Shown piece after piece: positions 22,667 through 29,734 of a stretch of 64,000 bases of DNA (positions within the stretch are counted from its first letter, which is position 1; every line of letters starts with the position of its first letter). The stretch lies in the NCBI GenBank assembly GCA_004802725.1, contig SGPM01000061.1:1-64000 (forward strand), written 5' to 3'. The notes beneath the pieces are model-generated. The model was not told where the DNA came from and ran no database searches. It was given only the letters and a program-made list of their open reading frames with translations. This DNA is from Antrodiella citrinella (lineage: Eukaryota; Basidiomycota; Agaricomycetes; Polyporales; Steccherinaceae). The position numbers and the translations under genes are program-made.

Positions 22667-25600
22667 TCAGGGCATGCTGGCCTGCAACCGATAATAGCCT
22701 GAGTAAAGTATGCCATGAGAATAGCTGGAATGTATCTACCTGTGTCGTCGTTATACTCCATTGTAGCATGAAGATCAAGCTAAGATCAAGTGGTAAACCA
22801 TTCAAGTTGGGTCGGGAAGACGAGAGTGCACGTTGAAAGACGTACCGGATTATCCACATCCGGCGTCAGAAGAAGTCCATACAGGATTTGGAAAATGACG
22901 CTTGAGAGTAGCATAGTGTGAATAGTTGTAGAAGAAGGTATTGTGCAGATTCGAACCAACCTCATTGACATGTCTACCATCCAGCCTCGATCGAACACGG
23001 CGTGACAGACTTTGCCATGTCGATTGATGTTGGGGTGGAGGATAGGCGTGATGAATCGACTAGAAAGCGTGCACTTAGTAAGATCGTCTTCGACGTCTAA
23101 GACAAGCTCTTACACTTCTGGTGCAGTCTGAGGATAATCGTCTCCAAAAGCGACGTAAGCTAAAAAGGTTCCTCCAGCGTACGGTGACTATTTCCCTCAT
23201 CAACTGACAAGCCAATCGATAGGATTGTATGAGCACCTACCCCTTCCGGTGCAGAAATGACGATCTGAATGGGACGATACAAATGAGATCAGTCGCTAAG
23301 CTTGGCATGAATGATAAGAATGCAATACCTTCCAGAATGCCATATCATTCCCCGTATAAACATCGATGGAGGCTAATGAAATTGAGTACACCGTTAGTGA
23401 TTTTTCCGAGTTGAATTGAACAACAACAGCAACTCACGATGCGGTTGATTCACCACGTCACGAATTTCTTGCATCAGACGTTTGCCTCGGGTCGAGCTGA
23501 GGGCCAGCACACTGTTGCCCGCGACTAGTTTCGCAGACAGAACAGGGTGATCGATGCGCTACAGGTTTGTAGGGTGGTTAGTAGTCACCCCACGCCGTAC
23601 TCGAACTTAGGATAAGATATGTACCTCGTGTGGTCTTCGTTGCGGGCAAGACTCCGACGTTACCACATCAACCTGTCACGTTGCGTTATTGCAAGATGGT
23701 ACGAGCTCACTCTGGGGCGAGTTAACCGAGGACTTACTGGGTGTTGTCGTAGGTTGTTGTACTTAAGCAGCTCCCATTCATTCTGTACGAGCGATTGCGG
23801 CGGCTGTATCGCATTTGATAAAACCCGTTTCACAAAGCTTAATTGAACTTGAAGACATACCTTCTCCACACGATCTGCAGATTGCAATACAGTCTCAAGC
23901 TCCATAATACTTAGCGCATTTTCCAACTGACCCAGTCTGGGTATGAGTGTATAGCAGGACAAGAATAGCCAAAGACGTACTGTTTCTACTACAAACGAGT
24001 AGCCGCTAGTTGCTTTGGCAATGGCATGCAACTTGCTCGTGCTCCCTAGCTGCACGACAATGGAGTCGACAACAATAGAAGATTGTTGTAATTTCCGAGC
24101 GATGACGCTAGGTGACATGCGAGACCCGATATCTTCGCCTGTACAACAATGGATGGGTGAGCACAGGAAACAGTATTGTGCTCAATTCAAAAATAAATAC
24201 TGACCATCCGTGAGGCAGATTATCCTTAGCCGTGCCGATGGATGCTGCAGGTAAAGGTCAGAGTTGCTGCACTATCGGAGTTCGGCTGGTAAACGTTGTA
24301 ACGTACGTCTCTTTTGAAGGACGAAAGCATTGTCAAAGAGGTCGATAGGCTGTCGTAGAGAGGAGTGTCACCCGAAGCCTATACCAAGTCAGTTGGAAAT
24401 GCGTTGAGGAACAATTGATTATGCCTTTACCTCGACGTTCTGAACGGCAGTGCGGAAGCTTTCTTTCAGTAAAGTCAAGCTCTGGGGCGAATGCCTAGTC
24501 AGAATCCACAGCGGCAGTCAGATGCATGCTAGTAAATTCACCTGAACTTCCTTCACCTGTTTCCCAAAAGTTACAAGCCCTTCGCCATGCCAATGTTAGC
24601 TACTAGAACAACAATAAAAACATTGCCTCACCGATAGCGATAGGATGATCAAAGGCCTCGGACTTGTTGACAAATCTGCGACGACAATCAGCCTAGGACA
24701 CGCGCTCTGTAACACATACATACGCTTCGAACGCTTGTTTGACAATGTCCAAACTATCATTTGCACTACGTCGTCAGCGCACATCAAATCCGAAGGAAAT
24801 TATTGACAGACCGGCTGAGTGAACGAGAGTCATTACGGTGACGTTCTGCGCCAACTGCTATGTGACGCCAGGCTTATATTATCACCGGTAGATCAGCGTA
24901 AACAGATAAAAACCAAGAGCCGATAGCACTTACGGCGCACTGCTATTTGTGAAGCAGCCAGAAAGTTTCGGTTGGGTGAAGGCGAGGGACAGTCGAGCAC
25001 TAGGTTTATCAAAGGCTGGACTGTATCTAGCACTTGCCCAACCGAAACGCCGTCTCCTACATCCTTCAGACCTTTCGAGAGGTCAGCAACTACTTTGGAA
25101 AGTATCTGAAGCTCACCCACCCGACCACAAATGGTGTTTTGAAGGCTTGCTCCTCTTGAAGTATGCGTAGTCAAACAGGATGGACATGGCTGTTCTCGAG
25201 CCAATCAACGGAAGATATATAGAGTGCGCGTCGGAGTCGCGAGTCGTAAATGCAATGAGCTGTGGACGTCCGGCTGTAGGAGCAAAAAGAGCGTCGCGAG
25301 GCCGGCCGTTCAATAAGTTGGTGACAGCCTGACTGGTCAGTCTGTCGGGAGTAAGATATACTTGCGTGAGCGGTTCGTCGGGGTTGAATGGGGAAGTAGG
25401 ATATTCTTGGAGCCATGCTGCGATAGACGATCGTTCGTATACGTGACCTGTGACAAACCATTTCTCAGTGTTGAGAATGAAAGTACGCAATGTGCACATA
25501 CCATCTCCCGCTCGCACGGGATCGACAAATACACGCCCGGTGAATGGGTCCAAAAATCTCTAGACTCATATTGAATATATCAGTGAAGTCATTAGGAATG

Positions 25601-28600: not shown

Positions 28601-29734
28601 AAGGGGGCATTCTGATTCGGCCGTAGGGTGACCGTCATCCAATGCTTTGAGACACTTCTCGCATGGGAAACCTGAAGTGATAGAGCACCTTGTGATAAAT
28701 GTCGTTGGGATACATAGCTTGCGTGTGTGACGTACCAAACGGCTCGGTACAAATCTTACAGTCAAGCTCAGTTGGTGACGTGCCGAGGACACCAGATGCT
28801 GGATGTCGCACAATCAAATGATGCACGTATGGACTGTGAATGAGACGTACCGATTCTCGAATGAGAATACGGACAATCCCCGCGACCACAATGTGACCCG
28901 TCAATTTGCCTAGGACAATGCAATTGGCCAAGTCGACCGGCTGTAGAGTCTCAATATTAATACGACGTATCGTGACAGACAGAGGGAACGACCGATGCTT
29001 ACCAACGAACATCTGATTGGCAGTGGTACACGAACAAGTCCCAGTTGGAATATGAGGAGCAGATTCGTCATGTGTATTGATGCCAAATGCATCCTCGTCG
29101 TCGAGCCATCCGAGAGAACGAGCCGTCTCACGCCTCACAACATCCTATGCCAGTTAATGCGTCGGTTTCCACATTTGAATTTGAGAACATCATGCAAGAC
29201 ACGTACCATGGACATGCTAGTACTGACTGTACTTCCACCAAAAGCCATGATTTTGGAAGATGCTTGTGATTCACCGTTTCGAGCCAGCTCCGGAGTGACC
29301 AGCGCGATCCTCACGCGTTTGCCTTGCTTGGTGATGTCGTCCTCGGGGATGTTACCATCCTGGAAAGCTGGTGTGTTTGCATCAAAGGATCCCCTGCTAG
29401 CGCTCCTAGTATGAGGTGCGATATGGGACGAGGCGAGCTTCTCTGGATTTTCAGCGTGTACGGGAGAGCTTTTAGGTTCAAAGTGTAGTTGTACGACCTC
29501 GCCTGATTCGAGCACGTCGCCGACGACATCGTCCTTGAACAGCACGGATGCGTCGCTCAGAGTAAGACGTATGCGTTTAACGACATCGTCGGAAAAGGCT
29601 TGTCGTCTCGATATCTCGCTGATCAAATCAGCTACACTTGCGTCTGAGGGTATGGGCACCACATATCGCACAAGCTGCGAGTCGGAGGTGTCCCGTTGTG
29701 ATGGGATTTCTACCTTGAGACGGATTTTGGCCAT
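22667..29734 (-). CDS. Giant ubiquitin-pathway fusion: Ubl-like, RING-H2, U-boxes, vWA and E2 (UBC)
   Basis: One minus-strand gene of about 7 kb with many short introns. In order: a ubiquitin-like N-terminal fold (start MAKIRLKVEIPSQRD at 29734, about 85 residues), and a Cys/His-rich segment. A RING-H2 finger follows (28780-28400) with ELDCKICTEPFG, CNHIFHAHC and CPAGC. Next are U-box 1 (about 26980-26850; CDLSGEPLRDPV) and a vWA start (26260; VVIALDLSRSMGEE, the MIDAS DxSxS). U-box 2 (25553-25390) has LDPFTGRVFVDPVRAGDG and HVYERSSIAAWL. A vWA body (24830-23860) has IGLVTFGKQVKEV, SGDTPLYDSLS and IICLTDGEDIGS. A complete E2 fold (about 23480-22667) has RGKRLMQEIRDVVN, WKIVISAPEGSPYAGGTF and TPILHPNINRHGKVCHAVFD, with the catalytic Cys codon at 23005-23007. 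E3 and E2 functions in one chain suggest self-contained ubiquitin transfer. Reading frame was followed through almost all junctions; those near 27500 and 25150 remain uncertain, so it could in principle be more than one transcript. Confidence 0.8.

Follow-up and report, generated by a model that had tools for sequence, protein, structure and literature searches.

Gene structure and domain organization

The window analyzed here is a 64,000-nucleotide stretch of DNA from the wood-decay fungus Antrodiella citrinella (Polyporales, Steccherinaceae; contig SGPM01000061.1), and its minus strand carries a gene of 42 exons whose product is probably a single-chain ubiquitin-conjugating (E2) and ubiquitin-ligase (E3) enzyme, as judged from its sequence and from structural models of homologues. 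E2s and E3s are nearly always separate proteins that meet briefly. In the sequence or in a homologue model, this one polypeptide displays intact E2 catalytic residues, a U-box nested in a von Willebrand factor type A (vWA) domain, a complete metal ion-dependent adhesion site (MIDAS), and a ubiquitin-like fold. A previous interpretation of the window from its letters alone (hereafter the sequence-only reading) had placed E2 and E3-type modules in one polypeptide, and this was borne out by the same domain order, at similar length, in gene models from other species (P0002, P0003, P0008, P0018, and P0030). A domain search matched UBC (PF00179), U-box 2 (PF04564), and vWA (PF00092), all above the cut-off. 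The main features are listed below.

22505..29734, minus strand: whole gene, 42 exons, 1619 aa; aligns over its full length to P0002 and P0003
26239..26342, minus strand: vWA strand 1 with the MIDAS motif DxSxS, aa 857-870; D865 and S869 conserved; the strand is part of the vWA fold recognized in the homologue model
25305..25559, minus strand: U-box 2, canonical, nested in the vWA domain, aa 1039-1105
23873..24813, minus strand: rest of the vWA domain with MIDAS Thr1292 and Asp1324, aa 1233-1395
22520..23489, minus strand: E2 (UBC) domain, aa 1461-1615
23029..23037, minus strand: HPN motif of the E2
23005..23007, minus strand: codon of the E2 catalytic Cys1543

The locus lies on a contig of 103,118 bases (C554) in a host assembly of 30.0 Mb and 602 contigs. 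The exon model was built by splice-aware dynamic programming and was then corrected manually under the lead of homologues; because these guided the last correction, agreement with them where splice sites were corrected does not count as independent evidence. The first exon model, made before this guidance, already joined the E2, U-box 2, and most of the other parts in one chain. The introns are 46 to 85 nt long and follow the GT-AG rule in 41 of 41 cases, and the 1619-residue product aligned end to end with a 1613-residue protein of Laetiporus sulphureus (49%) and a 1573-residue protein of Jaapia argillacea (42%). One homologue search, the own-genome search, and one Pfam scan were performed with an earlier hand-built model of 1591 residues, which was later superseded by the 1619-residue version.

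The fused E2 domain

The E2 domain matched the UBC profile (UQ_con, PF00179) with 97.5 bits against a cut-off of 27, covering profile positions 1 to 137 of 140. The closest PDB sequences were ordinary UBE2D/Ubc4-type E2s (7xed_A, 86.9 bits; 4ii2_C, Ubiquitin-conjugating enzyme E2 4, 84.3 bits), and the fold matched Ubc13 with a target TM-score of 0.82. The active site proved to be intact, as the sequence-only reading had claimed, with both HPNIN and Cys1543 in place.

For motif counts, a pattern search located the HPN region in 32 of the 51 sequences, which comprised 50 database proteins and the 1619-residue model (P0001 represents the same gene), and several of the 19 sequences without the pattern are fragments that end before the E2. 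The H and N of the motif were invariant (32/32), and Cys occupied the catalytic column in all but P0015 (31/32), which has additional residues at that point, presumably from a mispredicted exon. Residues typical of the fused-E2 family are a His following the Cys (29/32) and an Asp at the third position of loop L7 (30/32).

A U-box within a split vWA domain

U-box 2 matched PF04564 with 41.2 bits (cut-off, 21.4), its PDB matches include E4B and PUB12, and its 'SP' is kept in 9/9 aligned rows. The vWA domain matched PF00092 with 38.9 bits (cut-off, 23.8) from profile position 15 onward, strand 1 being upstream of the insertion, and the fold match of a homologue model confirmed the vWA fold including this strand. 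The MIDAS is complete, consisting of DxSxS (D865 to S869), T1292, and D1324. The sequence-only reading had described vWA segments; the vWA assignment and its MIDAS stand, but the segments belong to one split domain. Taken from the sequence and the homologue model, a canonical U-box 2 is inserted between strand 1 and the remainder of a single vWA domain with a full MIDAS.

The N-terminal half

29483..29734, minus strand: ubiquitin-like domain at the N-terminus, aa 1-84
28861..29036, minus strand: Cys/His knuckle, CxC...HC...C...CPYSH, aa 213-250; Cys/His invariant in 7/7 aligned Agaricomycete rows
28404..28760, minus strand: RING-H2, RBX1-like, with an extra Cys, aa 267-327
27043..27613, minus strand: conserved helical region ahead of U-box 1, aa 518-658; helices in the P0013 model
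26810..27042, minus strand: U-box 1, weak, aa 659-718; aligned to U-box 2 by hhalign

The ubiquitin-like N-terminus that had been proposed from the letters was supported by a ubiquitin-like fold in the homologue model. There is no Gly-Gly at the end of this domain, and it is therefore unlikely, on its sequence, to be a conjugatable modifier. Fold support covers the ubiquitin-like, vWA, and E2 parts. Residues 135-181 and 343-417 of P0013 show more strand-helix patterns in the model, which could be ubiquitin-like folds. In P0009, a relative from ENA, an RBX1-like RING is directly followed by a ubiquitin domain at residues 396-466 (105 bits), which ends in RHR, not RGG.

The claim of a RING-H2 was upheld in its eight zinc ligands and not in its profile score. 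The ligands, C-C-C-H-H-C-C-C, are invariant in 7/7 rows, the last pair being C-x3-C, not C-x2-C, and the top PDB profile match was RBX1 (E 0.0027). The score for PF12678 (zf-rbx1) was 27.7 bits against a cut-off of 31, and we therefore term the domain RBX1-like rather than a member of that family; the RING of P0009 (29.5 bits) is also slightly under the cut-off. In the N-terminal homologue model, the RING region has a predicted local distance difference test (pLDDT) value below 50. The helical region at residues 518-658 contains many of the invariant columns of our alignment A4. U-box 1, which follows it, reached 87.3% with U-box 2 in hhalign across 30 columns and had no Pfam match.

Distribution of the family

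Named members in the Basidiomycota are from Laetiporus, Jaapia, Grifola, Sparassis, Postia, Hohenbuehelia, Mycena, and Abortiporus, and further named members are from Pseudocercospora, Cercospora, Septoria, Venturia, Stipitochalara, Cudoniella, Apiospora, Whalleya, and Biscogniauxia; these lists are lower bounds, because each homologue search scored the approximately 7,990 candidates with the most shared words. Among 27 members scanned with Pfam at E 0.001, VWA_2 was found in 26, UQ_con in 25, and U-box in 24, the last including Ascomycota and P0009. The RING was recognized by pattern in 9 of the 51 sequences, all from Agaricomycetes. The Cudoniella protein P0007 also has a short-chain dehydrogenase match, possibly a gene-model fusion.

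In a phylogenetic tree, the Basidiomycota (9 rows) and the Ascomycota (12 rows) each formed one clade, a pattern that fits vertical descent. The tree took 28 of 33 rows, with P0027, P0029, P0030, P0031, and P0033 excluded for want of an anchor, and the placement of P0009 and P0050, both long branches, is unsure. Five of the 33 rows had no value in the spacing count (P0004, P0006, P0021, P0028, and P0029). The own-genome search found no second copy in A. citrinella and gave just three weak E2 fragments outside the contig. A mimivirus E2/E3 entry may exist, but two scans of viral_contigs and a literature search gave no relative among giant viruses. Among the matches listed in the prokaryotic scan with alignment A2 were three bacterial loci, aligned over just 76 to 92 vWA residues.

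Public gene model and neighboring genes

The deposited protein of the same gene, EUX98_g3179 (P0001, 2234 aa), shares identical blocks of at least 15 residues with our product that cover 1203 of its 1619 residues. P0001 omits residues 953-1270, including U-box 2, and continues into PF15469, presumably a Sec5/exocyst-type domain, of the downstream neighbor (below 22242, minus strand); no other protein among the homologue matches listed carries PF15469. We take this public model to be wrong, both in skipping U-box 2 and in its fusion to the neighbor, and the present model corrects it by removing the fusion and restoring U-box 2. On the other side, a divergent neighbor (30281-31525, plus strand) begins like a cytochrome b5 and has a hydroxylase-like portion in open reading frames read by eye, and we take it to be FA2H/SCS7-like.

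Proposed mechanism and alternative explanations

As a single-chain enzyme, the protein would be charged at Cys1543 by a ubiquitin-activating enzyme (E1), and a substrate or regulator would be held by the MIDAS face of the vWA domain or by the N-terminal half with its ubiquitin-like domain and RING. Such binding would bring U-box 2, which emerges from the sequence beside the MIDAS, up to an E2~ubiquitin, either in its own chain or in a dimer partner, and U-box 2 may then promote ubiquitin transfer through a non-canonical contact with the E2. A ligand-gated machine is a possible but tentative elaboration, in which a MIDAS ligand would move U-box 2 onto or off a private same-chain E2 whose L7 was rebuilt when the U-box entered the vWA domain. 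P0050 has the only one of the 32 E2s that keeps S-P-A in L7, and it also has a contiguous vWA domain and a U-box directly behind the E2; under ligand gating, this would be the ancestral or an alternative layout. That the nested U-box is linked to the rebuilt L7 is our hypothesis from this one long-branch sequence.

Several observations weigh against a single-chain E2-E3 enzyme. S-P-A is absent from L7 in 31 of the 32 E2s, and the A. citrinella E2 has M-V-D there. E2s need this S-P-A for the U-box of CHIP, and E2s without it are not cognate, according to PMC2396629. The fused E2 therefore lacks what a CHIP-type pairing calls for in its partner, although the U-box membership of U-box 2 is unaffected. 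A classical U-box-to-E2 contact is accordingly unlikely from the sequence, and the self-contained machine of the sequence-only reading would need a contact of another, non-canonical sort in cis, unless the E2 acts independently of the U-box in its chain. The RING not only scores below its profile cut-off but is also absent from the compared named Ascomycota rows. The Hohenbuehelia and Mycena members P0011, P0012, and P0015 have no Pfam U-box at E 0.1 (3/3) and yet retain the E2 and the long insertion. Furthermore, the homologue models are of moderate confidence (mean pLDDT, 67.7 and 64.9).

The absence of S-P-A beside the conserved 'SP' of U-box 2 counts in favor of the main rival explanation, namely that the parts act in trans, with the E2 serving other E3s, the RING and U-box recruiting ordinary free E2s (e.g., Ubc4 and Ubc13), and the fusion serving to co-localize them. 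Other E2 genes are available in the genome, where 27 PF00179 matches were counted exon by exon. However, the E2 and the nested U-box are retained together in most scanned members, from both Agaricomycetes and Ascomycota, which would be needless for action in trans only, and L7 of the fused E2 is altered in a family-specific manner; we regard this rival as rather unlikely. That the E2 domain transfers ubiquitin alone, with the U-boxes as structural relics or scaffolds, would agree with the members that keep an E2 without a recognizable U-box and with the degenerate U-box 1, but it is improbable given a U-box 2 in 24 of 27 members, Ascomycota and P0009 among them.

The chance that gene prediction has chained two or more separate genes is very slight. 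The exon model is based on splice signals and homology, and it departs from the public annotation of the species. We nevertheless rejected a two-gene reading, because the gene models of other species named above share the order and similar length, the vWA fold draws on residues on either side of the U-box, and 37 of the 41 introns, if retained, would disrupt the reading frame or introduce a stop codon. The single-chain E2-E3 enzyme is our preferred reading.

Comparison with known systems

The sequence-only reading knew of no characterized protein with this architecture. None was found in the literature searched, and no study of this family or domain combination was found by title or abstract in openly licensed PMC literature, but the combination of vWA, U-box, and UBC occurs in many fungi and some of these proteins already have database names. 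The homologues P0015, P0017, and P0020 are entered as 'Putative bifunctional E2/E3 enzyme', and P0022 and P0023 as 'Putative ubiquitin-conjugating enzyme E2, von Willebrand factor, type A, U-box'. A conserved fungal family in which a complete E2 is joined to a vWA-nested U-box would be a natural single-chain system for studying ubiquitin transfer, its activation, and its control by a ligand side by side, and it would give many fungi a ubiquitin enzyme that is apparently unstudied.

BIRC6 is an E2/E3 hybrid, and UBE2O, also a hybrid, follows a logic similar to that of the A. citrinella protein with different parts; to our knowledge, neither carries a U-box, a vWA domain, or a RING of the RBX1-like type. 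In both, the UBC domain lies within a very large multidomain protein (PMC11354881), and UBE2O is termed a hybrid E2/E3 in the abstract of PMC12635394. Fungal Clade 6A PARPs are multidomain proteins with a C-terminal UBCc that keeps the active cysteine; they have a PARP catalytic domain, and the excerpt of PMC2964712 names no U-box or vWA for the clade. The A. citrinella protein has no PARP catalytic domain among its Pfam matches up to E 0.1. U-box 2 matches E4B/UFD2, CHIP, and plant PUB ligases by sequence, but we know of no E2 in the same chain and no U-box within a vWA domain in these ligases. The vWA domains of TFIIH Ssl1/p44 and proteasome Rpn10 each align as a single uninterrupted domain of approximately 190 residues, in which no U-box separates strand 1 from helix 1. 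E2/E3 hybrids are an already known kind, and what distinguishes the present protein is its nested U-box together with its altered E2 loop.
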